The notes beneath the pieces were generated by a model that made no database searches, was not told the origin of the DNA, and worked only from the letters and a program-made list of their open reading frames with translations. Source: a bacterium (Candidatus Blackallbacteria) CG13_big_fil_rev_8_21_14_2_50_49_14 (GTDB lineage: Bacteria > Cyanobacteriota > Sericytochromatia > UBA7694). Taken from it: DNA of 64,000 nt. A program made the position numbers and the translations under genes. Position 1 is the stretch's first letter, and each line of letters opens with the position of its first letter. Positions 17,281-63,168 of the stretch are shown one piece after another. The stretch is from positions 1-64,000 of the forward strand of contig PFGG01000028.1 in assembly GCA_002783405.1 (NCBI GenBank), read 5' to 3'.

Positions 17281-17862
17281 ATGATGATGACAGGTATAAT
17301 GAGTTGGGTTTCTCAAAAATATGATTCTTTTTTGCAGACCCTTGGTTTGCGTAAACCCCCTGTTACGGTGGCTCCACCCTCACCTCCTGCTGCTGCAGAA
17401 GAAGTCAAACCTCATACTTTGACCCAAGGTGAAAACTTGCGGGTCGAAGCCTCAAATTCAGGTCGTCGGGGTACTGCACAAGTCTCTTTGGGCGATTCCC
17501 TTCAAGAACAAACTCAGCGCTGGGATCAAGCCTCACAGGGGCACCAGATTCCTGAAATTCAAATGGCAGTGAAAAATGGAAAATCACCGACCATTGCTTT
17601 AAGCGAATATTTGAATAAAAATGGAAGTTTGAGCCGTGAACAACGTAACCAGGTTGCCAATTTTATGGAGCAGGTCATGAAATACGGCACGGTGAAAGAC
17701 AGTCGTGAACAAAATTTTGTAGGCTCGAATCTGATTGATGTGATGAAAGAAGGTATTCGTGATAAAGGGATCACAGAAGAGCAGGTACAATTATTGGCAA
17801 ATGGAGACTTTACAGTTCAAGCCTATTTGGGTTTGGTGAAGGATGGCCAAAGTATTGCATAA
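17281..17862 (+). CDS. Unknown protein, tandem paralog 1
   Basis: 193 residues, no known family. ATG is preceded by AAAGGAGA, a strong ribosome site. The N-terminal 75 residues are proline-rich and variable. The C-terminal 120 residues are conserved with the next gene: QMAVKNGKSPTIALSEYLN, FMEQVMKYGTVKDSREQNFV and LLANGDFTVQAYLGLVKDGQ. The conserved part is helical, soluble and ends identically in both (VKDGQSI). No signal peptide. The two genes are 90 bases apart on the same strand and clearly arose by duplication. Function unknown. Confidence 0.8.
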   Translation: MMMTGIMSWVSQKYDSFLQTLGLRKPPVTVAPPSPPAAAEEVKPHTLTQGENLRVEASNSGRRGTAQVSLGDSLQEQTQRWDQASQGHQIPEIQMAVKNGKSPTIALSEYLNKNGSLSREQRNQVANFMEQVMKYGTVKDSREQNFVGSNLIDVMKEGIRDKGITEEQVQLLANGDFTVQAYLGLVKDGQSIA

Positions 17863-17952: not shown

Positions 17953-18513
17953 ATGAGTATGATAATTAATGACCCCAATAAGTCTCTTGGCATGAAAGGC
18001 CTGGACCCTCTGAGTATTCTCAAAAAACAGCCCCTTGATGCACAACCGAAGGGCCCTGTGCTTGAAAAAGATCCATTTCAACTTCCCCAAGAAAAGCTGA
18101 ATGTCTCTGAAGTGAAAAAAGGAACGGCTCAGCTGTTTCTTAAAGAAGATTTGCAAGGTATGCAAGACGAATGGCATAAAGCAGCTAAAACTGGCAAACC
18201 AGTAGCAGAAGTTCAGAATGCAGTACGCGAAGGTCAGTCTCCTGCGACAGCCATTTATAAACATATGAAAGCCCAAGGCTATTCCAAAGATCAAATGGCC
18301 AATGTGGCAAAGTTTCTTGAAGGTGTCATGAAAAATGGCAAGGTGGAGTCCAGCCGTGATGGTAATTTTGTTGGCCGCAACCTGATCGACGTGATCAGTG
18401 AAGGTATCAAAGAAAAAGGAATCTCCAGTAAACAGCTTGATTTATTGGCCAATGGTGATTTCTCAGTGAATGCCTATTCCGCCATGGTCAAAGACGGTCA
18501 ATCGATCTCATAA
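17953..18513 (+). CDS. Unknown protein, tandem paralog 2
   Basis: 186 residues. Shares the C-terminal helical domain with its upstream neighbour (VQNAVREGQSPATAIYKHM, NFVGRNLIDVISEGIKEKG, LLANGDFSVNAYSAMVKDGQ) at roughly half identical residues by eye. The N-terminal region differs and is lysine/proline-rich. Ribosome site AGAGAAG before the ATG. The gene ends at an intrinsic terminator, so the pair may be one transcript. Two highly conserved blocks, SRDGNFVG with NLIDV and LLANGDF, are the best handles for searching for relatives. Confidence 0.8.
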   Translation: MSMIINDPNKSLGMKGLDPLSILKKQPLDAQPKGPVLEKDPFQLPQEKLNVSEVKKGTAQLFLKEDLQGMQDEWHKAAKTGKPVAEVQNAVREGQSPATAIYKHMKAQGYSKDQMANVAKFLEGVMKNGKVESSRDGNFVGRNLIDVISEGIKEKGISSKQLDLLANGDFSVNAYSAMVKDGQSIS

Positions 18514-23668: not shown

Positions 23669-25210
23669 ATGGCAGGCAGTATTCAGTTCAGTAACGCCGA
23701 ATGGCTGGTTCGTTCCTTGGATCGCAATAACAATAAGGTCATGGATGAACTTCAAGCAGATCCCAATATTAAAAACAAAATTGACAGTGATAAAAATGGT
23801 GAGATCAGTTCTGCTGAATTGACCAACGCGATCAAAGCCGATGCAGTCGAAATTCGTCAGGGTACAGTTCAAGAAGCCAAAGGCTTCCGTATTTATGTCG
23901 AAGGTCTTGAAACCCTCAAAAGCGTTCATTCCACCGCGCAAAATGGTATTTCCAACGTCCATGTCTGGACACCTACTGTTTACAGCGATGACAATTCCCG
24001 CGATCGCTACTATAAACTGCTCGACAGCAACCGGGCCTATGATGGCGCAATCGACAAACTTGAAAGCTCCTTGCACTCAATCAAAGACATGACCGCCAAT
24101 GGCAATGATGCCACCACCCGTGCGATTAATATTCAGGCCAAAACGACCCTCAACAGTGCAAGTTGGCGTACCTGGACTGCGCGTATGCAGCAGAATATCA
24201 GCCAGACCCGTGATTGGTTCAACGATTATAGCCCCCGCTCAGGCAGTGGCTACCGTGAAACCCATGACCCTTTTAAACAAGGCGGAAGCGGCAATGCAGT
24301 CGGAACAGATCCTTTCAAACCCGGTAGCGGCAACAGTGGTTCTGCCAATGGCGTGGATCCCTTCAAACCCGGCAGTGGCCACAATGGTTCTCCCAATGGT
24401 GTGGATCCTTTCAAACCTGGCAATGGCAACAATGTGGGTTCAAACAATCCTTATGGCAACGATCCCTTCAATGGCGGCGGCAACCATGACAATAGCCAGC
24501 CTGTGATTCCCCAGGATCCCTACTATGATCGTCTGCAGCCCCATATTCGCGAACAGGAAATGATCAATACCAATCTTCAGGCAGCCTATGCCACCATGAA
24601 CAACAGCCTGAAGGCGATTGAACAGCAAACCCGTGATTTGCCTGATCTGCAAGCGAATATCCGGGGGACTGATGCCGCCATCAGCCGTGCTTTCAGCAAT
24701 ATCACCGCCATTGAAAACAGTTCTGAATCAGCCAATGTGATTGGTTCACGTCTGCGCAGCAAAGCTGATGCAACCGATGCTCAGGCCACTGGCCGTGCAA
24801 CACCCTATGCTGGCGTCGGCGCTGGTATTGGCCTCGTCGCTGGGGGCGCGATTGGTTTCTTTGCCGGTGGCAAAAATCTGAAAAATGCTGCCATTGGTGC
24901 CGGTATTGGCGCTGCTGCAGCGGCTGGAATTGGAGCCTTGGTAGGCCACAGCAAAGATCAGGGCTTTAAAGAAGAAGCCGTTGCCCTGCGTACCCTGGCT
25001 GGTAAAGTAGAAAGCTACAATCCCCAGGCAGATAAACAGACTGCGATGAATGCCAATGAAAAGCTCTATGATGCGCTTTTCGAGGCCCGTAGCGCCCGTG
25101 ATATTGACCGTGCTCAAGTTGTAGACAAGAGCATTGACGGTATTCGCAGTCAAGCCGCAGCTGTGGCTGACCGCTCTGGTGAGATCCTTCAGGCTTACCA
25201 ACAGAAATAG
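23669..25210 (+). CDS. EF-hand-like, repeat-containing protein with glycine zipper
   Basis: 513 residues from the ATG at 23669 (TCTGGAGGA upstream). Two EF-hand-like loops stand near the N-terminus: DRNNNKVMDELQ (18-29) and DSDKNGEISSAE (39-50), the second matching a canonical calcium loop. Residues about 199-275 hold DPFKPG repeats rich in Gly, Asn and Ser. Residues about 381-430 form a glycine-zipper hydrophobic stretch (AGIGLVAGGAIGFFAGG, then AAIGAGIGAAAAAGIGALVG) that could insert in a membrane. The rest is helical. No signal peptide. Function unknown; it may bind calcium. Monocistronic with two hairpins downstream. Confidence 0.78.
   Translation: MAGSIQFSNAEWLVRSLDRNNNKVMDELQADPNIKNKIDSDKNGEISSAELTNAIKADAVEIRQGTVQEAKGFRIYVEGLETLKSVHSTAQNGISNVHVWTPTVYSDDNSRDRYYKLLDSNRAYDGAIDKLESSLHSIKDMTANGNDATTRAINIQAKTTLNSASWRTWTARMQQNISQTRDWFNDYSPRSGSGYRETHDPFKQGGSGNAVGTDPFKPGSGNSGSANGVDPFKPGSGHNGSPNGVDPFKPGNGNNVGSNNPYGNDPFNGGGNHDNSQPVIPQDPYYDRLQPHIREQEMINTNLQAAYATMNNSLKAIEQQTRDLPDLQANIRGTDAAISRAFSNITAIENSSESANVIGSRLRSKADATDAQATGRATPYAGVGAGIGLVAGGAIGFFAGGKNLKNAAIGAGIGAAAAAGIGALVGHSKDQGFKEEAVALRTLAGKVESYNPQADKQTAMNANEKLYDALFEARSARDIDRAQVVDKSIDGIRSQAAAVADRSGEILQAYQQK
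24308..24472 (+). repeat. 48-base tandem repeats encoding DPFKPG units
   Basis: The codons for DPFKPG begin at 24308, 24356 and 24404, an exact 48-base period. Degenerate units lie before (about 24267, DPFKQG) and after (24461, DPFNGG). Unit-number change by slippage or recombination is plausible. Confidence 0.85.
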
Positions 25211-25292: not shown

Positions 25293-25416
25293 GTGTTTAT
25301 GTAGTTTATCCCAGTCTCTTTGCGCGTTTCGGTTTGCTCTCAAACTGTTTTAAAGCATGTAAGTTCGGGTATACAAAAGGCAGTAACAGATTTGAAAGCA
25401 AAAGGTTATTACTTCA

Positions 25417-28400
25417 ATGGGTGATTTGAATATTTCCAGACAGTTTGCACAAAAGCTTGGCGATGAAACCTCGCGAAAACTGGTCAAAGAGATTCTTCAG
25501 GATGGCCAGGTCGACAGTGCCGATAAAGCCAAGTTGGCGGCCTTAAAAACGCATTTGGAGAGTGCAGAGGCAAAGAGCCCAGATGCTGCAATTACAAAAG
25601 AAATCATTGAGTCTTTCACAGATTTGCATACTGTTTTAGGGGTCAATGTTGGCACTGACAAGAAAATTCTTGAAGCGAATCTGAAACGCTTGCAGGCCTT
25701 TCAGGATGGAATGAAACCCAATGAAGTAAATTTTGAAGGCATGCAGGTCACTACCGATGGCTGGTTTGGTGATGCGACCCGCGCTTTGCATATCCAGGAT
25801 TTAGAACCACCAGATTCCAGTTCCGATCCGGTTCCCAATCAGACAGCAAGTTCGACTGAAACTCCCGCTAATACACCCAGTGCTTCTCCTGCTTCGACAC
25901 CTTCTGTTCCCACTGATACACCTTTGCCCAAACCTGCAGCCCATTCCTCTGCTCCAATGAATGTTCCCAATCCGTATCTTCCCCAGGAAAACTATACCCC
26001 TACAGCCACGCCGTCTGTGAAGCTCCCGCAAGTGGCTGTGCCTGCCAATTTAACCGAGGAACAGGCTCAGGTGCTGAGTCCCAACCAGTCGGCCTATTCG
26101 CAATCTGTAAATCATTTGCAGACCCAGGTCAAAGCATTAAGGGAGCTTTTGAATAATCCCCAGGCGGTGAGCAATGAACAACTGCAAACAAGCTTGAAAC
26201 GTCTGGTTGAAAACGATGCTGGCAAAGGTTTTTTGGAACTGCTCAAATTTAATCCCAATCTTTTAAATGATTTAGAGCAAAAAGGTTTGATTTCAGACTC
26301 CGATCGCAAAAATTTAAGTGCCTCTTTAAGTGATATTCTGAATAAAAAAGCATCCCTTGAAACGGGCCATCAAAAACTTGAAACCTTGGGCACACAAATT
26401 CAGGAATTGGAAACGCAATTGGAATCGGTCACCGATTCTGACGCGCGCAACGGCATTCAAGCGCAAATCGAAGCTTTGCGTTTAGAAACCCGTTTCCAGC
26501 AAGAAAACAACCAGCAATTACAGTCTGAAATTTCAAGTGCGATCGACAATCTCACGAAGGGTGAACTTCAGCTTCAAAAGGGTCAAACACCAGAAGATGT
26601 TTTGGGGGCCTATTTAAACACTGAGCCCTCACCTCTTTCTGAACCTCAAATAAATGCCTACCGTGCGGGTCTTGTAAAATCAGCGGATCAGTACCTGACC
26701 CAACCCAATGCCGGAAGTTATTCAGATTTAAGATCCAATCTTTATTCTAATTTGTATGCCTTTGAAAAAAGCGTTCCTGCGGCTCAAGAACAGTCTTATG
26801 TCAAATTTAAAGAGGCTGTATTAGATGTAGAACAAAAATATTCCAATTTAAACCATCAAATGGAGGCCTTAACGGGAACCTCCAGCAGTTTGGGGGATTT
26901 GAAAACCGGTGAAGAATTGGCTGAAGAATTAAAGGCCCATGCCTCTGCCGCTGTTCGTGCTGTCGATGCTTTTGCCCAAAAAGGAGAATCTGTTTTAGCC
27001 TATTTAAAGGCTTATCCCAATCAATACGAAGGCCAGGCAGCAGATGCGGCTGCTCTTGAGCAAAAACTGAATGCACTTAAGGCGAGCCCGGAGCTACAGG
27101 ATAAGGTTTCAATTTTAAATCAAATCTCTTCTGCTTTGGATGAAGTGTATATTAAAACCGAAATCAGCAAAGGGTCGGCACCTCTGGCTGAGGAAACCCA
27201 ATCTGCCCTCTTGGTTGCCAAAGACAAACTCAGCTCAGAAGAAGATAAAAAAAAGCTGGATTTGTTGATCAAGAATCCTGAGTTGGTAAGAATTCTGCCC
27301 AAGGCAGATGAGTATTCTAAAATATTGACCTATCTTTCTGAAAAGTCTTTTTTAACCTTTTCAGAACAGGAATTGAAAACTGCACTTGAAAGTGGCAATA
27401 CTGAAAAAGTGAATGCGATTTTCACTGCAGATATGTTCAGTTCGTTTGGTTTTGGCTCCTTGGCACTGGGGGGGGCCTTTTATTCTCCCAGTTTTAATTT
27501 GGACAATTACTTCATGCCGCCTTCCTTGGCTCTTTCTTCGATGAGCATGGATTCAAGTTTGATTCCAAATGACAATGAACTCACACCCACTGGAAACAGC
27601 AGCTTTGATTTGGGTTTGGGGCAAACCTTTGGCAGCTCCAATGCTTCATCAGGCGCATTTCAATTAACAGCTCCCACGATCGGTTTGAGTAACCGGCCCT
27701 TGTCACTGATGGCTGCTCCTCTTGCGCCTCCTACCCCCCTCTGGCTTTCTGTTCCAGGGGGATCTGCCCGGGCTGAAGCACTCTCAAAAGAATTGGCTTC
27801 AATGCCTGAAGACCAACGCCAGCAATTGGTTGAAGCTTTAAAATCGCCTGAAATGGCGGGAATGTCAGATTTTCTTCAGCGTTTGTCTCAAGAGCAGCCT
27901 GAACTCAAAGCCCAATTGGATAAGGTTCAGGCCGGTGAAAACGGCAAAGAAGCGATCAATTCTGGGCATTGGAACAATGATTCACTTTTAGATGCGGCAC
28001 AAAGCGCCCTGCAAAATCAAATTCAGGCCCATGATTCGCTCAAGGCTGAAATTACGCTTGCAAAGAAAGACTTGGAAACCCTGATCGCCAACCCTGATTT
28101 GTCTTTGCCCGTTAAAGCAAAACTGCAGGAACAGCTGAAAACCATCAATGGGGCTTTGGGGCAGATCAACAAGGGTGAATTTCCACCCGCAGATTCAGCT
28201 GAACAGCAAAAATTAGATAAGGTGATGCAGGCGATATCTACCCAGGGTAAACCCCAAGGGCTGAGTTTGAGTGACAGGTTTATGCTCCAAGCCACAGTAG
28301 ATGTGCTGGATGATTTGAAGGCCACTCCTGCCTTGATGCAAAAACTAGAAACAGCTCCCTCATTCAAAAATCTAACCCAGGTCTTTGCCAAAGATGAATC

Positions 28401-30705
28401 AGGCAGTTATACCTTTCCTCAGGAAATCCAAAACCTGCTCAAGGATCCGAATCTAAGCCCAGAAGCAGCCCAAATGCTCATGCTTCAGGCCAATCGTATC
28501 AGCCATTTGGCCAATGCCGCAGCAACAAAGTTGGTCGATGAAATTGAAGCGATCTTAAAGGTGGGGGAACGCCAGAAAGCCGAAGGAAATGGTGGCGGCG
28601 AGTTGACTTCTGGGTTTGATTCTTTGATCAGCTTGAACAGTTTTAAAGAAAATATGAATGCCATGGGCAAAACTTCTTCCAGCGGTGGAAGTGAAATTAA
28701 AGCTGTGACCTGGATGAATACCATTGCCAAGAAAGTAGGCCCCCTTGATCTGGCCCATGAAAACCGTGAAATGCGTCAGCGCGTGAATTCAGTCTTTATG
28801 GACAACGCAGGCATGGTCAAAGATTTGGCAGAAGAAAACTTAAATACGATTCAGGAAAAAGCACAGATTAAAGAGAGCCAAAACAGTCTGGCGAATTTGA
28901 TTAAAGACCCAGAAATGATGGCGGTGATGGACAAAGCCTTGGCAGAACAGGGATTAAAACCTGAAGACCTTGAAAGTCTGGATGCAACAAAGCTTGCAAA
29001 AATAGAAAAAGCTGTTGCGGCTGTGAAGCTGAAAATTAATCAAAGCCCGGGTGCAAGTGACAATCCGGTCATGAAAAGCCAGCTTGAAAAACTTGATAAT
29101 ATTGAGCAGGTTCGCCAGGCTGTGGTTGCCTTAGAGACTAAAAATACCCAAGCAACAACTTCGATGCTCACCATGATTGAGAATTCAAAGCAGGAATATC
29201 TCACTGGCATGACTGAAATGAGAGATCAGCTCAAAGCACAGGGTATTGCGACTCCCCAGTTGGATGCGTTTCTGGCTGCCCCCTTTATGCCCAATGGCCC
29301 TGCTTTGAGCGATGTTCAAGGTGAGTTGGCAGCCTTGTCTAGTAATACCTCTCAGCCTCCCCAGGTGCGGGCTTTGGCGAATACTTCCGGGCAGATCTTG
29401 AACAATGTAAGCATTATTAGTATGGCCCAGACTGAGATTGCCAACGGAGAATACAAGCCCGAAACCCAGGCTGCTTTAATTGGGGCTGTCGGGGGAGGAA
29501 CGCAGTTGCGTCAGTTTATGGCCACCTATAGAAACGAGTTACAGACGCTGGGGCCTGAAAAAGCTGCTGAGAATCTGAATGCGAATTTAGGGGCCTTGGC
29601 TACACGGATTGAAGCAGCAGGTACCGATCCTGCAGCCATGACCACAGCCGTGAGTTTGCAGGGCGGAAATTCTGGTTCGTCTGGTGGTGGGGATCGAGGG
29701 CTTGTTGTTGCTATGGGGGGGCCTATGGGGCGTGTTGTTCAAGATATTAATAATCTGTTTACTGCGGGCATTCAAATGAATGAAGCAGGCTTTGTCCCTC
29801 CGAAAATAGATTTGGGAGGAATGAATATCACCTCCTTTAATCCCCCTGACCGTGACCGCTGGTATCCGGGTAAGTTTTTACATGAAATGACGCAAATGAT
29901 GCGCCAAAGGGGCACAATTATTGCCCAGACGCCGCCCTCTCAATTGGCTGGGGTTTTGGGGATCTTTGGGCGAGGGGATCAGATTTCAGCTCATGCCGAC
30001 AATACCTTGATGAAAGGGGTTGAAAGCTATTTGCAGGAAATCAACCCCTTTATGCAAGCTGCAGGATTGCCGGGAATGGATCTGAGTTATATCAACAGTT
30101 CAGATCCCCTGTCTGGGGATCCTTCCTTTTCGGCTGAACCCCAGCTTTCTGCAGAGGCAAAGAGCTTGGTTGCCCAAGCTGATCAGTTTGCAAATGCGAT
30201 TCTGGCACCAACCCCTGAGGTCAGTGGTGAAGCCTTTTTATCTGAGCTTTTGCAGAAATTTTTAGACAGTATCCGTGATCTGGACTTTGAATCACGCAAG
30301 CTGGTATTGGCGCAAATGACCCAAAAAATGATGAACAATGCGATTACACGCCTCTATAAAGAACGGGCCGATCAAAACAATCAATACCACGAAAAAATGC
30401 TCAATGAATTGACTGAAGGCTTCAAGGGCCAAATTGAAAAGAGTATTGAACGTGGCTTGATGCATGCCGACAGCGCGCAAGCGGCCATGGCAGAAGGGGC
30501 ACAACTGGGGAGTAAAACGGGTGAGGCCGTCAATCTTTCAGAGCAACAGCTCAAAGCGCATTTTAGCCAGTTACTGGAAGGCCCTACGCAGGACAATATG
30601 ATGACCCGTGTCAGCAAGCAAAAACTGCTTCAGGCTTTGTTTGAGGGCAGTAAAATTACGGGTCAACCGGGTATTTTCGCGCTTTTAAACAGGTTTGAGA
30701 ATTAA
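25417..30705 (+). CDS. Giant helical protein, paralog 1
   Basis: 1762 residues, no signal peptide, no family recognised. The N-terminus has an EF-hand-like stretch (DGQVDSADKAKLAAL, near 29). A Pro/Thr/Ser linker follows (about 129-208; repeated TP, SP and PS pairs), then long coiled-coil-rich helices (about 220-650). A Ser/Phe/Leu/Gly-rich non-helical segment lies at about 673-782. More helices follow, then a C-terminal module at about 1604-1675 (EAFLSELLQKFLDSIRDLD, LVLAQMTQKMMNNAITRLY). That module is shared with the next giant gene. Cysteine is absent or rare and Gln, Glu, Leu and Ala are abundant. Flanked by its own terminator. A cytoplasmic scaffold or a leaderless secretion substrate are both possible. 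Confidence 0.85.
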   Translation: MGDLNISRQFAQKLGDETSRKLVKEILQDGQVDSADKAKLAALKTHLESAEAKSPDAAITKEIIESFTDLHTVLGVNVGTDKKILEANLKRLQAFQDGMKPNEVNFEGMQVTTDGWFGDATRALHIQDLEPPDSSSDPVPNQTASSTETPANTPSASPASTPSVPTDTPLPKPAAHSSAPMNVPNPYLPQENYTPTATPSVKLPQVAVPANLTEEQAQVLSPNQSAYSQSVNHLQTQVKALRELLNNPQAVSNEQLQTSLKRLVENDAGKGFLELLKFNPNLLNDLEQKGLISDSDRKNLSASLSDILNKKASLETGHQKLETLGTQIQELETQLESVTDSDARNGIQAQIEALRLETRFQQENNQQLQSEISSAIDNLTKGELQLQKGQTPEDVLGAYLNTEPSPLSEPQINAYRAGLVKSADQYLTQPNAGSYSDLRSNLYSNLYAFEKSVPAAQEQSYVKFKEAVLDVEQKYSNLNHQMEALTGTSSSLGDLKTGEELAEELKAHASAAVRAVDAFAQKGESVLAYLKAYPNQYEGQAADAAALEQKLNALKASPELQDKVSILNQISSALDEVYIKTEISKGSAPLAEETQSALLVAKDKLSSEEDKKKLDLLIKNPELVRILPKADEYSKILTYLSEKSFLTFSEQELKTALESGNTEKVNAIFTADMFSSFGFGSLALGGAFYSPSFNLDNYFMPPSLALSSMSMDSSLIPNDNELTPTGNSSFDLGLGQTFGSSNASSGAFQLTAPTIGLSNRPLSLMAAPLAPPTPLWLSVPGGSARAEALSKELASMPEDQRQQLVEALKSPEMAGMSDFLQRLSQEQPELKAQLDKVQAGENGKEAINSGHWNNDSLLDAAQSALQNQIQAHDSLKAEITLAKKDLETLIANPDLSLPVKAKLQEQLKTINGALGQINKGEFPPADSAEQQKLDKVMQAISTQGKPQGLSLSDRFMLQATVDVLDDLKATPALMQKLETAPSFKNLTQVFAKDESGSYTFPQEIQNLLKDPNLSPEAAQMLMLQANRISHLANAAATKLVDEIEAILKVGERQKAEGNGGGELTSGFDSLISLNSFKENMNAMGKTSSSGGSEIKAVTWMNTIAKKVGPLDLAHENREMRQRVNSVFMDNAGMVKDLAEENLNTIQEKAQIKESQNSLANLIKDPEMMAVMDKALAEQGLKPEDLESLDATKLAKIEKAVAAVKLKINQSPGASDNPVMKSQLEKLDNIEQVRQAVVALETKNTQATTSMLTMIENSKQEYLTGMTEMRDQLKAQGIATPQLDAFLAAPFMPNGPALSDVQGELAALSSNTSQPPQVRALANTSGQILNNVSIISMAQTEIANGEYKPETQAALIGAVGGGTQLRQFMATYRNELQTLGPEKAAENLNANLGALATRIEAAGTDPAAMTTAVSLQGGNSGSSGGGDRGLVVAMGGPMGRVVQDINNLFTAGIQMNEAGFVPPKIDLGGMNITSFNPPDRDRWYPGKFLHEMTQMMRQRGTIIAQTPPSQLAGVLGIFGRGDQISAHADNTLMKGVESYLQEINPFMQAAGLPGMDLSYINSSDPLSGDPSFSAEPQLSAEAKSLVAQADQFANAILAPTPEVSGEAFLSELLQKFLDSIRDLDFESRKLVLAQMTQKMMNNAITRLYKERADQNNQYHEKMLNELTEGFKGQIEKSIERGLMHADSAQAAMAEGAQLGSKTGEAVNLSEQQLKAHFSQLLEGPTQDNMMTRVSKQKLLQALFEGSKITGQPGIFALLNRFEN

Positions 30706-30755
30706 GCCCAGTACTTTGTTTGCCTGCTTTTGTAAGAGAAGGCAAGGCTTCATGT

Positions 30756-30792
30756 CCCCTGCTGAAAAATTATCATTTCAGCAGGGGTTTTC
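30756..30792 (+). terminator. Intrinsic terminator after giant gene 1
   Basis: 12-bp perfect stem (cccctgctgaaa / tttcagcagggg) with an 8-base loop, followed by a short T-run. Confidence 0.85.
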
Positions 30793-30915
30793 ATGTTATA
30801 AACCTCGCGCTGTGGGGTATAAAAAGACAGTAAGCCTTACGAAAGCTCATGTACTGTTTGGGCATTGAACGCGATAATGTTTCATTTTTAAGATTAAAAG
30901 GTTAAGGACAAGACC

Positions 30916-33900
30916 ATGACAGAGATTCAATCCGGTAATAATTTTTCAGTCTCTACCCGTTTCATGCAGGAAGTGCATAAAGCGGCTTCAGATAATACCG
31001 TTGAAGCCAAAGAACTTGCGCGTTTGGTGCAAGTTGCTTCTGAAGATGCCTCTGGCCTGACGGATGACGAAAAATCCATGCTGACCGGTTTGTTCACCAA
31101 GAAATTGGATACGACAGGTTTGACGGACGAAGAGAAAAAGCTTTTTGATCAAATCGGTGGCAGTATTACCAGCCAAGAAGTCGTGGATCAAAATATTCAA
31201 GAGCTTAAAAATGTAACCGCCCATGAAAATGATCCCAACAGTCTGAATTTTTCTAAGCTCAAATTGGTAACTGAGTCGAAAAGCTTTTTATCGAAAGCCT
31301 CCTTTGGTTTGTTTGGGGGCACAAATATTGAATCTCATACACTGAATATTTCTGATGGAAATATTCCTTCGATAGCGAATCCTCCTCAAACAATGGCGAT
31401 GGATCAGAAGCATGAACTTGACCGTAACAATCTGATCAATATGATGGGCCCTTTGGAACAAGAGCTTCAACAGGCAACAGCACCGGATTCGGATGTGCGT
31501 AAGCGCTTGGCCGCCAGTATGGGAGAAGGGGTCGACCCTAATAGCCAAGCTGTTACAGATAAAATTGAAACCTTACAAAAAAAGATCACTGACTTTAAAA
31601 ACGATCCAAAGCAAGGAGATTGGGTGAATTCATCAGATCTTACTGCTTTGATGAACAGCTATGCCCAAAATCCGCCTACCGATAACCCCCGTATCAATTC
31701 TGCCTATATGGGAACGCTTTTGGGCGCATTTTGGAATGCTACAGATTCAAGTGCAATTGCTAAAGAACAAAAAAGCAATATTGCAAATGGTGACATACAA
31801 GTCCCTGCCGCTGTTTCTGAAATTAATCAAACGCTTGAATCCGTCAATGAATTGGCAAAAACCGACGCCCAGTCAGCTGTTGATAAAGCGAGTACTTTGA
31901 TTGCGCAATTGGATGATTTGAAAGCAAGTAACCCTGACCTTTATAAACAGGTGATTCGCGGAACAGATGAAAGTGCAATAGATTTGCTTCGGGGTCAGGT
32001 TTCTGATTTGAAGCAATATTTAAAAGAGGGTGGGGCCATGGGGGCCGCCCAGATGACCCAACTGAATAATATCTATGCAAACCTGCATCAAATGCAAAAA
32101 ACACTTGATGTTGAGCCGGTTATGACTCCAAGTGCTGAGGATATTGCCTCTAAACAAGCATTTTTAGATAATCCTGCTGTTCCAGATGCCGCGAAAGAAT
32201 CTGTTCGTCAAGAGTTAGCTGCACTTCAAGCTCAGCCAACAACCTCACCTGAAGATCAAGCAAAACTTGATGCGATCAGAAATGCTATGGTGGGGGCGAA
32301 AAGTGCCGTTTATGAGGCCTCCCAATCCTCTCAAGATTCTGCAGTCTCCCGCAGTGATATGGTCAATGATTTGCAAGAGGCTGAGTCCACTTTGGCCAAT
32401 CTTTTGACACAACATGGTATTTCAGATACTGGGCGTACTCAATTGCAGGCCCAATTGGATGCTACTCGGGCAGCATTAACTCAACTTCAAAATAATCAAG
32501 AAGTAAAGTTTGAAAATCCTGCTCAAGAAGCTGATTTTAATAAGGTTTTGCAAAATCTGCAAAAAATGAAGCCTGAGGAGCCAGCTGTTCCTGCACCTAC
32601 AACTGATGCTGCTTCTGTGCCCACGACCGAGGGGGGGGCTGCTCCTGTAAGCGATGGTACTCCAGGGAATGTAACCGTTCCCGATAATGCATTGGGAGAT
32701 ATTGAAATTGCACCCTATTCAGGAGCAATTGCCTCTGATTTTATGTTGAGAGACTTTAATCTTGGCTCCACCAGTGGGGTTAACAATCCTGCCTCTTCAT
32801 TGATGCTTGGAACTGGTTTGGATCTTAATTTGGGCGTGTCTCCAATCATTACCTCTCCTGATCCCTATGACTTTTCATCTGCCAGTTCTTCATTGTTGAA
32901 CCCAGCCCCACTTTCAAGCTCTCTTGGCTTTTGTGGTGTGGGGGGGAGCAGTCTTTACAATGATCCTTTCAGTTTGTATTCTCCTTCTTTAAGTTTTGGC
33001 GGGCTGTCCGGCGGGTTGGGGGGATATAATCCAGGTTCCCTTTCTCTGAGTTTTCCTTCCTATGCCTCATTTTTAACCAGTCCCTCACCGACATCTGCTG
33101 CGCCTAGTCAGCCGGCATCAACTTCTCCTGGGGCAACGGGCTCAGCTCCTGCGGCCACCCCCCGCCCATCCTTATCGAATGTTTTTCTGGAAGGCGTTGG
33201 TGAAGATCCTGCCAATGTGAAACCACTTTCACCTGAGCAAGAACAGCGAAAGACCAAAGCTCTTGAAACGATTGCGCAAATTGAGTCTGATGACAGTGCT
33301 TCTCCGGAAGCTAAACAGGCTGCTGCCATTTTAAAACAATTGGTTCAAAACCCGACAGGTTCAATTCAAACCCCAAATGGAAAAATTACGCCGCCTGAAG
33401 GAGCTTTTGAATCCAGTTTAACTGTTTTGGAAACCTACCAAGACTTAAAGAGCAAAGGCATTGATACGGCAGATGCTGAGGTCGTATTTATGTTGGCTGC
33501 TCAAGGGGTTCAATCAGGTGAATCGCCTGAAAGTATTGCCGCCAGTGTTCAACAAGTTGCAAAGAGTGGCTCAACTGAAGAGATTACGGCCAATTTGAAA
33601 GGTATTCGTTCGGAGAAATTTGTGGAAAGTCAGCAAGATATTTCGAAGCTGGCTGGTAATTTGAAAAACTCTGAATTGGTCAATGATCTGGCAACCGGTG
33701 TTTTGGGAGATGATTTTGTCAAACAGGTACAAGCCTTAGAGGGGGGAGCAAATGTTACCTCTGTCGAAGAAGCCTTGGCTTTCATTAAATCTTCGGGCAA
33801 AGATACAACCCCCAGTTATGTCACTCAAATTATTAAAAGCCCTAAATTTGCTGAGCAATACCAACCCATTTTGGATTCTGCAAAACAGCAGTACCAGGAA

Positions 33901-35631
33901 TTAGATCAAGAAGCGCGTGATTTGATCTCGCAAGTAAATGATTCAGATGTTCTGAGAGTTCAGGTTACGAATATCGATGAGGCCATTGATCTATTATCGA
34001 AATCGCCCTCTCCCAAGGCCGCTGATTTGTTAGGGAAACTGCGTGAGTCCAAGGCAAAGCAAGATGCTTTAGCGCCTCAGTTGGCGGGTATTCAGCAGCT
34101 GAGTGCAGTGAGTAAGAACTACCATTCCATGCAAGAATCGATGACAAAAGCACTTAGTGATCTGCGTGCTTTGCCTGACTCGCCGACAAAGGCCTCTCAG
34201 ATTCGGATGTTAGAGACTGTTCAAACAGAACTGACAAATACAGGGCAACTTTCTCCAACATCGGCTCGCGCTTATGCTGACTTTAAGGTTGGCCGTCAGG
34301 TTCGTACTTTAGAGGCCGGACTGAATAGTGACCCACTTCAGACGACCCACGGGCGAAAGGTGATTCGAGGTGTCGTTAGTGCATTTGAAACCGCAGGAAC
34401 ACCACAAGAAAAAGATCAGGCATTTACTCAAATCGTTACAGGATTAGAAAATGGTACGATTGTTGCTCCTACTGCTTTGGCTGTTCAAAATCAGGTTTTA
34501 ACAGGTTTGGGGTTAGAACCTGCCACTAGGGTCCTTACCCCACCACAATTTTTAGCTCGGATTAAAACTTACAGTCCAAGTGCTGTCATTTCTTCAACCA
34601 TTCAGCAATTTGGAGTAATGTCTACTGCGAATGATATAGCACGTTCGAATCTAACCGGTGAACCTCCCTTAAGTTCAATAGCAGACAGACAAGCTGAATA
34701 TTCGACTACAGCAATGAACTTGAATATGAGTCCCAGCGGTTTAACTGCATTGGCCGCGAGTAATCCAGTCGTTGCTTCTCTTATGGATTTTAATCAGGCT
34801 GCTGATGCAGAACGAGATTATAACTATAGTTTGCCTCCTGATCAACAAGCTGCAGCTTGGGGCAATACCTTTAATAATTTATCTGCAAGCAATGCAATCT
34901 GGGATCAGATGGATCGTCAATTTGCAGAAAGTTTAAATCAGCTTTCTCAGGCCAATGATCAAGTCATGGTCGCAAATGGACTTCCTCCGCTTAGCAGTGG
35001 CGATCATGTGATTTCTCGGGATCCCCATCTCAGTGCAAGCACGCAAAAGTTGGTAGATGAAGCAGATGCACTTGCGGATCGCTTGATCTTGGCGCCGCTC
35101 CCGGCAGTGAATGGGGAAGCCTTTTTAAGTGATTTGTTAACTCATTTTATTGATACCATTCGGGATTTGGATATGAAAACACGCCAGTTGGTTTTAAATC
35201 AAATGGCGCAAAAAATGGTCAATAATGCCATTACTCAGTTTTATAAAGACAAATCAGATGCGAATAATAAGCACCATCAAGAAGCTTTACAGCGTTTACA
35301 AGAATCGTTTAAAGCTCAAATTACAAAGGCGATTGAATCAAGCATGGCAGGACAATCCACGAATAATTCCCAAAGCGTGGCCTCCATGAGTGGTCGGGTT
35401 TCTGGGGCGACTTTATCTTCTGCGATGGATAATGTTCCAGCACAGAAGGTTGTTCAGGAAATGTTTAATTCCACCAATCAAATGTCTCCCCCCATTTCTG
35501 TCTTGCAAAAACAACGTATTTTGGATGGCATGGCACGAATCATGAAGGCCGCTGGAACCTCTCAAACTGATGACGATCAGATTGCCTTGAGGGGACTCAA
35601 TACTATTTTGACGCGCGACCGCATGAATTGA
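30916..35631 (+). CDS. Giant helical protein, paralog 2
   Basis: 1571 residues; ATG preceded by AAGGAC. Same plan as the preceding giant: a helical N-terminus with TDDEKSMLTGLF and TDEEKKLFDQIGG, long coiled-coil-like helices, a central Ser/Leu/Gly/Pro/Phe-rich segment (about 595-755), more helices, and the conserved C-terminal module at about 1400-1475 (EAFLSDLLTHFIDTIRDLD, LVLNQMAQKMVNNAITQFY). Outside this module and the general layout, similarity to paralog 1 is low. The central segment holds FCGVGGSS and many short SF/LS/GG repeats. No signal peptide or enzyme motif seen. It has its own terminator, so it is probably transcribed alone. Confidence 0.85.
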   Translation: MTEIQSGNNFSVSTRFMQEVHKAASDNTVEAKELARLVQVASEDASGLTDDEKSMLTGLFTKKLDTTGLTDEEKKLFDQIGGSITSQEVVDQNIQELKNVTAHENDPNSLNFSKLKLVTESKSFLSKASFGLFGGTNIESHTLNISDGNIPSIANPPQTMAMDQKHELDRNNLINMMGPLEQELQQATAPDSDVRKRLAASMGEGVDPNSQAVTDKIETLQKKITDFKNDPKQGDWVNSSDLTALMNSYAQNPPTDNPRINSAYMGTLLGAFWNATDSSAIAKEQKSNIANGDIQVPAAVSEINQTLESVNELAKTDAQSAVDKASTLIAQLDDLKASNPDLYKQVIRGTDESAIDLLRGQVSDLKQYLKEGGAMGAAQMTQLNNIYANLHQMQKTLDVEPVMTPSAEDIASKQAFLDNPAVPDAAKESVRQELAALQAQPTTSPEDQAKLDAIRNAMVGAKSAVYEASQSSQDSAVSRSDMVNDLQEAESTLANLLTQHGISDTGRTQLQAQLDATRAALTQLQNNQEVKFENPAQEADFNKVLQNLQKMKPEEPAVPAPTTDAASVPTTEGGAAPVSDGTPGNVTVPDNALGDIEIAPYSGAIASDFMLRDFNLGSTSGVNNPASSLMLGTGLDLNLGVSPIITSPDPYDFSSASSSLLNPAPLSSSLGFCGVGGSSLYNDPFSLYSPSLSFGGLSGGLGGYNPGSLSLSFPSYASFLTSPSPTSAAPSQPASTSPGATGSAPAATPRPSLSNVFLEGVGEDPANVKPLSPEQEQRKTKALETIAQIESDDSASPEAKQAAAILKQLVQNPTGSIQTPNGKITPPEGAFESSLTVLETYQDLKSKGIDTADAEVVFMLAAQGVQSGESPESIAASVQQVAKSGSTEEITANLKGIRSEKFVESQQDISKLAGNLKNSELVNDLATGVLGDDFVKQVQALEGGANVTSVEEALAFIKSSGKDTTPSYVTQIIKSPKFAEQYQPILDSAKQQYQELDQEARDLISQVNDSDVLRVQVTNIDEAIDLLSKSPSPKAADLLGKLRESKAKQDALAPQLAGIQQLSAVSKNYHSMQESMTKALSDLRALPDSPTKASQIRMLETVQTELTNTGQLSPTSARAYADFKVGRQVRTLEAGLNSDPLQTTHGRKVIRGVVSAFETAGTPQEKDQAFTQIVTGLENGTIVAPTALAVQNQVLTGLGLEPATRVLTPPQFLARIKTYSPSAVISSTIQQFGVMSTANDIARSNLTGEPPLSSIADRQAEYSTTAMNLNMSPSGLTALAASNPVVASLMDFNQAADAERDYNYSLPPDQQAAAWGNTFNNLSASNAIWDQMDRQFAESLNQLSQANDQVMVANGLPPLSSGDHVISRDPHLSASTQKLVDEADALADRLILAPLPAVNGEAFLSDLLTHFIDTIRDLDMKTRQLVLNQMAQKMVNNAITQFYKDKSDANNKHHQEALQRLQESFKAQITKAIESSMAGQSTNNSQSVASMSGRVSGATLSSAMDNVPAQKVVQEMFNSTNQMSPPISVLQKQRILDGMARIMKAAGTSQTDDDQIALRGLNTILTRDRMN

Positions 35632-35763: not shown

Positions 35764-36393
35764 CTAGAGGACACCACCCGGACGAACCCAGTTGTAGAGA
35801 AAATCAGGAACAGCATCGCCTTTGGTTTGGTCAATTTTTTGCATTGCTTTGTGAAGCATCCAGCGAGCGTCTGAATTATCTTGACCCTCCATTTTGCTGA
35901 TACCTGAATATGCTGAGGTTATCATAGCGGTTAAGGGGCCATAGGCATTGGTTACGCTGCTCTTATCCCATGCTTCGAGCCCTTTGCGGGCCAGGGCTGA
36001 GATCACGCGATCAGCATCAGCAGGTGAGCGTTGGTAAATTTTTGTCAGAGCTTGAATCCCGTCTGCACCTTGCGTGGCAAGCCGATCCAATTCTGCTGTG
36101 GGGGTTTGTGTTTCTTGTAAGAGTGCGCGGGCTTTGCCTGATGTGGTTCCAAATACAACGCTGTTTGCGGGTGAGTCAGCCGATTGGATATTGATGGCCC
36201 GAATTTTACTCTGTGTCAATTCAGAGAGTAAATCCTGTTCTGCATTATCAATTTTGCCATCTTTATTGATCGCGGTTTGCAGTTCCTTGGCATTGGCTTC
36301 AGTTAAAGCACCAGGATTTGTCTTTTTAATATTCTGCAGGGTTTGAAAGACGTCTTTATTGAGGCCTGTGACGCGTCCATCGATTCCAGCCAT
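35764..36393 (-). CDS. Unknown EF-hand-like helical protein
   Basis: 209 residues from the ATG at 36393, which has AAAGGAA upstream. The N-terminal part carries an EF-hand-like INKDGKIDNAEQDLLSEL (about 46-63), similar in kind to the motif in the giant genes nearby. The rest is helical (DADRVISALARKGLEAWD, ARWMLHKAMQKIDQTKGDA) and ends in FLYNWVRPGGVL. No signal peptide. It faces giant gene 2 tail-to-tail. Function unknown; the shared motif and location suggest a functional link to its neighbours, which is inference. Confidence 0.72.
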   Translation of the reverse strand: MAGIDGRVTGLNKDVFQTLQNIKKTNPGALTEANAKELQTAINKDGKIDNAEQDLLSELTQSKIRAINIQSADSPANSVVFGTTSGKARALLQETQTPTAELDRLATQGADGIQALTKIYQRSPADADRVISALARKGLEAWDKSSVTNAYGPLTAMITSAYSGISKMEGQDNSDARWMLHKAMQKIDQTKGDAVPDFLYNWVRPGGVL

Positions 36394-36640
36394 GTTGATT
36401 GGGTTCCTTTCGTGTGTCAGCAAATCTTCTTAACTTTCTTATACCCTTTTCTTGATAAAAACATGCAGGGTCAGGGAGTAAATTCTTTCTTTTTTTCATG
36501 TGGGTATTGGCTTGCGTGTCTGCTTTTGTTCCTTCTTTTCAATATCCCCCTGTATTTGTAAGAATCACTCAGTTCTGGCAAAATAGGGCTGGGTTCTCTC
36601 TAAGTTCTTCCGCTGTAAATCCCAAAGGAATAAGCACTTC

Positions 36641-62602: not shown

Positions 62603-62757
62603 GCAATCCCTTGGGAATGCTGCCAATTGACAGGTCTTTGAAAATTTTTTTCGCAGGGGGCTTGCAATTTGAGCTGATTAATATTAAGATAATCATAAGA
62701 AGATTAAGTTTAGGTTATCTAAGTTAAGGGTATTTTTAAAGAGGTTAAATAAAGTTT

Positions 62758-63168
62758 ATGCAACTGAGTTCTGCACAGGCCATTCAAAACCGCGGTACCT
62801 TCCATGCTGCTGATACAGCATTGAGATCTGGAAATTCAAGTTCTGAAAGACATTCAGGTGGTGAAACCTATATGGCGTTTCAACATGCTGACAGTATGCA
62901 TTTCCAACGTTACCAGGCCCAGCCTGTTGCGACTTCCTCTGAAGATCGTTTCATGGCAGTACTGCAGATGTTGCTTTCTCTCGATACCCGTGTTTATACC
63001 TCTTTGGTGGTCAGCATTCTGTTCACCACCGTTTTTCATGCAATTTTTGAAGTGTTTCCCTTGATCAGCGTGGCTGTTGGCATGGCTTTTTTCTTTGTCT
63101 GGTATGTCATGAGCTTTTTCGATTTTAAGCGTTTAGTGCATACCCTCAGCTATGGAGCTGCTGCCTGA
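62758..63168 (+). CDS. Small membrane protein
   Basis: 136 residues. A polar 70-residue N-terminus rich in Ser and His precedes two membrane helices (about 78-99 and 101-120; YTSLVVSILFTTVFHAIFEV and VAVGMAFFFVWYVMSFFDF). No family recognised. AGAGG lies 13 bases before the ATG. The AT-rich leader shares AAGATTAAGT with that of the EF-hand gene at 23669. Followed by an intrinsic terminator. Confidence 0.65.
   Translation: MQLSSAQAIQNRGTFHAADTALRSGNSSSERHSGGETYMAFQHADSMHFQRYQAQPVATSSEDRFMAVLQMLLSLDTRVYTSLVVSILFTTVFHAIFEVFPLISVAVGMAFFFVWYVMSFFDFKRLVHTLSYGAAA

Follow-up and report, generated by a model that had tools for sequence, protein, structure and literature searches.

Two adjacent giant genes of a Sericytochromatia bacterium share a recurrent C-terminal module, a near-absence of cysteine and a SigB-type promoter

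The substrates of flagellar and injectisome type III systems, such as flagellin, FliD and large effectors, carry no Sec signal, are cysteine-free and are helical or of low complexity. In these respects they resemble the products of two adjacent genes, A and B (Table 1), which we analyzed in a 64,000-nt stretch of genomic DNA (hereafter, the window) from a member of Sericytochromatia, sister lineages of the oxygenic cyanobacteria. The organism is uncultured and non-photosynthetic, and its genome (84 contigs totalling 5.65 Mb, 96% completeness) encodes type III export machinery as well. In contrast to type III substrates, A and B have no flagellin, hook or effector domain, reach 1571–1762 residues, possess a C-terminal module of their own and are preceded by a SigB-type and not a sigma-28-type promoter. 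Coiled-coil cytoskeletal scaffolds such as crescentin and FilP likewise have long helical bodies and no signal peptide. Yet, no sequence match with these scaffolds was found, and A and B differ from them in their central proline/serine/glycine segments and in being cysteine-free or nearly so. They also depart from type I substrates of the RTX/LapA kind, having neither RTX repeats nor an adjacent ABC transporter and membrane-fusion protein, and from polymorphic toxins, as a conserved module takes the place of a C-terminal toxin domain. As for promoters, the Bacillales SigB consensus reads GTTTAA-N15(+/-2)-GGGTAT, and regulons of the SigB type usually serve stress responses (PMC9847131).

Table 1. 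Features of the A–B locus and related promoter elements, in window coordinates.
Feature	Position	Strand	Description
Gene C	23669..25210	+	513 aa, glycine-zipper stretch, weak EF-hand-like motif, 0 cysteines
A promoter, SigB-type	25347..25372	+	GTTT-N16-GGGTAT, 44 nt before ATG; same place in 4 orthologs
Gene A	25417..30705	+	1762 aa, 0 cysteines, signal peptide absent
A region alignable to B	29932..30642	+	residues 1506-1742, BLASTP
C-terminal module of A	30145..30459	+	residues 1577-1681, profile match 1.9e-40
B promoter, SigB-type	30795..30820	+	GTTA-N16-GGGTAT, 95 nt before ATG; same place in 2 orthologs
Gene B	30916..35631	+	1571 aa, 1 cysteine, signal peptide absent
B region alignable to A	34834..35466	+	residues 1307-1517, BLASTP
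C-terminal module of B	35029..35346	+	residues 1372-1477, profile match 1.1e-41
Gene H	35764..36393	-	209 aa, convergent to B
H -10-like element	36441..36446	-	GGGTAT, ~47 nt before start
Third window promoter site	62708..62733	+	25 nt before 136-aa membrane protein (62758-63168)

Re-reading of the ORF positions placed A and B on the same strand, 210 nt apart, exactly where the first-pass annotation had reported two giant ORFs back to back. Its statement that they belong to no known family held: neither protein scored over the cut-off of any Pfam, NCBIfam or PHROG model, matches with RTX and further type I families were absent and no toxin domain rose above cut-off at either C-terminus. The reported lack of a signal peptide agrees with the N-termini (MGDLNISRQFAQKL... 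in A and MTEIQSGNNFSV... in B), which by eye hold no hydrophobic stretch that would mark a Sec or Tat signal; a hydropathy screen was run over the long ORFs of the genome. The motif MGDLNI[SN]RQ is conserved at the N-terminus of the A orthologs, while B begins with MTEI. The start described as EF-hand-like amounts to a DG-x-[VI]-D pattern; unlike EF-hand proteins, A and B stay below the curated cut-offs, and EF-hand models gave no match even at E<=1. In B, a central segment of low complexity stands out (residues ~613–749, free of K/R, with a G/S/P/N/T/Y peak of 67%). It is weaker in A, where the central K/R-free run (665–759) falls inside the range of shuffles and the strongest G/S/P/N/T/Y peak (130–230) lies in an N-terminal linker.

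The two proteins share a single significant BLASTP segment, at their C-termini (38% identity, E 1e-36; Table 1), within which the GEAFLS motif starts at residue 1604 of A and 1400 of B, as originally noted. The A protein of a related genome (G004) additionally gives short N-terminal and central matches with B (~1e-5), which confirms a full-length relationship, if a diverged and loose one. The module in the common segment consists of a core, LSxxAxxLIxxADxLxxxLxLAPxP, followed by an amphipathic stretch that in A and B reads IIRxLDxxxRxLxLxQxA, and in every A and B protein is positioned 160–208 residues before the C-terminus. Profile searches over genomes indicated that the similarity is real, and the block matched no known family. 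In its own genome the module is carried by seven proteins of 179–1762 aa. Those other than A and B (380, 476, 657, 868 and 179 aa) are encoded on other contigs, bear it at or near their ends and are otherwise unrelated and signal-less. Judged by these profiles, the block is a multi-copy family and not private to the A/B pair, a point that the first-pass annotation missed.

The module was detected in 5/5 genomes of the Sericytochromatia family of the window and, weakly, in a sister family within the order (two genomes), with nothing at E<=1e-4 elsewhere among 292 sampled phylum genomes. Within this sample, it appears to be new and family-restricted. A module-like weak hit in G036, by eye a Clp-like N-terminal-domain protein, was judged a chance match. 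The nearest named records are MAGs of 'Candidatus Sericytochromatia bacterium' (JADMKE010000058.1 and JACYMC010000119.1), and the records found for the family are MAGs only. A search of the PDB with the module profile returned nothing credible; AlphaFold modeled the last 280 residues as entirely helical, but at a pLDDT of 37 confidence in the model is low and we considered it unusable. The 179-aa module protein is encoded in an operon (L039:8580-18000, minus strand) with a TPR protein and two giants of 1025 and >1182 aa that are cysteine-free, signal-less and without a Pfam match. This operon lies near pilMNOPQ; it is conserved across the family and also in G006, a genome of the sister family (L084, L085, L087, L088).

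The histories of the two ends of A and B differ. In a tree of the first 125 residues, A and B form separate clades (support 98/96), whereas in a tree of 110 C-terminal residues the A/B split occurs in 0/200 bootstrap trees. The latter tree has nine rows and its inner branches are weak apart from one; the A and B C-termini of G004 are sisters in it (100/99). In turn, the C-terminus of A from G002 is 55% identical to that of the window B and 46% to that of the window A, the latter figure being calculated over a shorter stretch. On these trees, the C-terminal block follows the genome in its evolution and not the body of A or B to which it is attached, as would be expected of a part docking to a shared partner. 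Such concerted C-termini would arise from gene conversion, from exchange of domains or from coevolution with a single partner alike, and under any of the three the block would be a functional unit of its own. It had been proposed to be a targeting, assembly or secretion signal. A function of this kind gains support from the recurrence of the module at the ends of unrelated signal-less proteins and from its genome-wise evolution, neither of which singles out one of the three roles.

We found that a GGGTAT-like element precedes every A, B and H gene. The pattern GTTW-N16-GGGTA lies upstream of all eight A and B genes examined, 40–58 nt from the start in A and 95–106 nt in B. The motif keeps a fixed place in 8/8 cases and makes the promoter of A and B SigB-type when judged by the pattern GTTT-N14-17-GGGTAT, sharing the -35 GTTT, the -10 GGGTAT and a compatible spacing with the Bacillales SigB regulon (PMC9847131). 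In the window, GTTW-N16-GGGTA occurs in front of three genes only, A, B and the one for the 136-aa protein; the last site is a perfect GTTT-N16-GGGTAT, and the C-terminal segments of the encoded protein are hydrophobic. Genome-wide, 42 motif sites were counted versus 28 for the reversed pattern, and promoter-like sites, i.e., those outside ORFs and 10–130 nt before a start, numbered 18/42 versus 1/28 (Fisher P 2e-4). Since the motif had been spotted by eye on A, B and H and was then applied to the remainder of the genome, this comparison is independent of the discovery set, save for A and B. About 12 of the 18 downstream genes encode signal-less, cysteine-poor, low-complexity proteins; among these are A and B, the module protein of 657 aa, an H-domain protein of 1717 aa (see below) and giants of 1621 and >2100 aa. 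The excess over control is barely visible in G001 (38 sites versus 31), where 8/38 sites are promoter-like and include those of A and B as well as of two module or EF-like proteins.

By this motif, A and B belong to a promoter-defined regulon, which had escaped the initial inspection. Unlike the Bacillales SigB regulon, it is composed mostly of giants of no known family and not of stress enzymes. The genome does encode two sigma factors closest to SigB/F/G, on contigs other than that of A and B, yet they score 186 and 175 bits versus a cut-off of 234. A sigma-28 promoter (TAAA-N15-GCCGATAA) sought upstream of A, B, C, H and the flagellin genes performed no better than shuffles, and no promoter common to A/B and the flagellin genes was found. 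A presumed promoter link to the flagellar operon on contig C57 was discarded, as the site is the flgF start codon, where ATGTTAAGGGGTAT codes for MLRGIY.

Cysteine is nearly missing from both proteins: A has 0/1762 versus 13.3 expected (Poisson 1.7e-6) and B 1/1571 versus 11.9 expected (Poisson 9e-5), the expectation being derived from 191 proteins of the same genome. This feature, also overlooked at first, extends to the orthologs (0–2 cysteines each, over ~14,000 residues) and to H and C, which contain none. Among 123 ORFs of at least 600 aa, the cysteine-free ones are module and H-domain proteins, signal-less giants, flagellin, FliF, FliM/N-like proteins and a few unidentified repeat-rich ORFs, and no recognizable housekeeping enzyme was among them; the list holds several fragments of the same genes and is to be read as a pattern, not a count. 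For comparison, a 1154-aa coiled-coil ATPase encoded in the window has five cysteines. Such depletion suggests a life outside the cytoplasm. Scaffolds, including coiled-coil ones, can be cysteine-poor without being exported, and the pattern therefore falls short of proof for export. Together, the cysteine test and the promoter motif offer a cheap means to find the remaining members of the set.

We tentatively favor, at somewhat less than an even chance, a reading in which A and B are giant structural proteins that are exported or lie on the surface, belong to a SigB-type regulon and dock to a shared partner through their C-termini. It builds on the shared module, its reuse, its decoupling from the bodies, the cysteine depletion and the common promoter, all of which can be read from the sequences themselves. 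On this view, the lineage would have its own set of structural giants, mostly helical, free of cysteine and lacking a signal peptide, with A and B as two diverged examples. The module may be where a single partner binds A, B and the shorter module proteins alike, or may co-assemble A with B; either would keep the C-termini within a genome alike while the bodies diverge. The proteins would act beyond the cytoplasm, as building blocks that are secreted or placed on the surface, leaving the cell without a Sec signal, likeliest via one of two flagellar-type type III apparatuses. The last step is plausible, and the least certain one. If so, A, B and similar proteins suggest a previously undescribed set of surface or exported building blocks.

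The main rival places A and B in the cytoplasm, as scaffold or filament components of a cytoskeleton, a polar organizer or a chemosensory scaffold, with the module as a self-assembly or anchoring domain and SigB-type control directing stationary-phase or stress cell architecture. An all-helical AlphaFold prediction (of low confidence), the absence of a signal peptide, the long body flanked by N- and C-terminal modules, the lack of export genes next to them and the usual stress character of SigB-type regulons (PMC9847131) all suit this role. We nevertheless consider it somewhat unlikely, albeit a serious contender, as the lack of cysteine is, in this data set, mostly common to flagellar and giant surface-like proteins and not to long cytosolic ones.

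With regard to the exit route of the proposed surface giants, we found that their own genome encodes two full-length FlhA and two FliP proteins, together with rod, ring and MS-ring genes and flagellins. Set one seems to comprise a flgBC-fliEF-flhA operon on C57 and fliOPQR on C55, and set two fliPQR-flhB on C80 and a lone flhA on C55. We infer this pairing from the sister family, in which two incomplete MAGs keep the C55-type FliP and one of them also the C57-type flgBC-fliEF-flhA genes; recognizable flagellin was found in neither. Two flagellar-type export sets per genome occur across Sericytochromatia (L033:9477-11651, L034, L035, L106). In most genomes of the class two FliP copies are present and the module is absent; thus, the export apparatus does not need the module. 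No export gene adjoins A or B in their own genome, and in G000 and G001 a module gene lies several kb from a flagellar operon. In one genome only, G003, A and H adjoin genes that by eye are fliS- and fliD-like. These neighbors and the FlhA/FliP copies are circumstantial links to the export machinery. The promoter-defined signal-less giants provide a testable way into the use of the second flagellar-type system.

Export of A and B by another signal-less route, type I-like or novel, with the module as a C-terminal secretion signal, would account for its C-terminal placement throughout the A and B proteins and its recurrence near the ends of unrelated proteins. It appears quite unlikely, given that neither an ABC exporter/membrane-fusion pair beside the A and B genes nor a match with an RTX/type I family was identified, and that the 179-aa member, which is approximately the module only, suits a partner or chaperone better than a cargo.

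Gene H adjoins A or B in 5/5 genomes of the family, and GGGTAT lies 42–50 nt before its orthologs (5/5), the -35 element not being clear. The first 100 residues of H recur at the start of four further proteins of its genome (1717, 1304, 328 and 458 aa). The 1717-aa protein (L239:1011-6164, minus strand) has a SigB-type promoter and an EndoU-like C-terminus (E 7.6e-4, below cut-off), for which no solved relative was found. Exported effectors often end in EndoU-like stretches, and the arrangement hints that H-type domains may be N-terminal trafficking parts of delivered proteins. A 206-aa gene overlaps that of the 1717-aa protein, and the C-terminus of its product resembles an FHA domain by eye. 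The AlphaFold model of H (pLDDT 66) gave no fold match below E 0.1. A similarity to head proteases (PHROG E 0.0065) was judged due to chance. We do not claim a relationship between the H domain and the A/B N-termini (15% probability in profile comparison), nor a common N-terminal signature M[GS][ND][LIMFV] (4/250 proteins, P 0.04, post hoc).

Gene C, which adjoins B in G001, matches an EF-hand model at E 0.013 (15.6 of 25 bits, under the cut-off). Through EF-hand loops it also weakly resembles the XopAW-type EF-hand type III effectors (NF041410; E 0.012), as does a 635-aa protein of the regulon (E 2e-4). Both lie far under the 120-bit cut-off, and A and B themselves have no match. With scores below their cut-offs, the XopAW and EndoU identities were retained merely as hints.

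That these proteins form a polymorphic effector arsenal delivered to other cells, with H-like N-terminal trafficking domains, long linkers and variable ends, is very unlikely: an H domain does open the 1717-aa protein with its EndoU-like C-terminus and the same promoter, and small genes do follow several giants, but A and B carry a conserved module, not a variable toxin, at their C-termini, and the EndoU match lies below cut-off and lacks a solved relative. A wider form of the surface-giant reading, in which a SigB-like sigma factor controls a flagellar-type export programme that the family devotes to secreting a whole class of giant cysteine-free proteins, seems rather doubtful. These proteins would build a structure on the cell surface or between cells, docking by the shared LAPxP module and relying on H-type domains for N-terminal trafficking.

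Small genes of no known kind lie 3–9 nt behind three giants (L242:5639-6034, L243:2302-2739 and L240:6262-6750) and are candidates for chaperone or immunity proteins. The window further contains two tandem paralogs (17281-17862 and 17953-18513; 193 and 186 aa) with no cysteine and of no known family. Upstream of them, a gene encodes a 903-aa membrane protein with the look, by eye, of a SpoIIE/RsbU-type phosphatase, which would fit SigB-type partner switching. On C80, a 413-aa protein (L035:7315-8556, minus strand) fuses an excisionase-type HTH_17 domain to the FlhA cytosolic domain (FHIPEP 6.9e-49). Its gene adjoins fliPQR-flhB, and the protein is possibly a regulator reading the state of export. 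C-terminal-only FHIPEP ORFs of ~430–510 aa are present in many relatives within the phylum.
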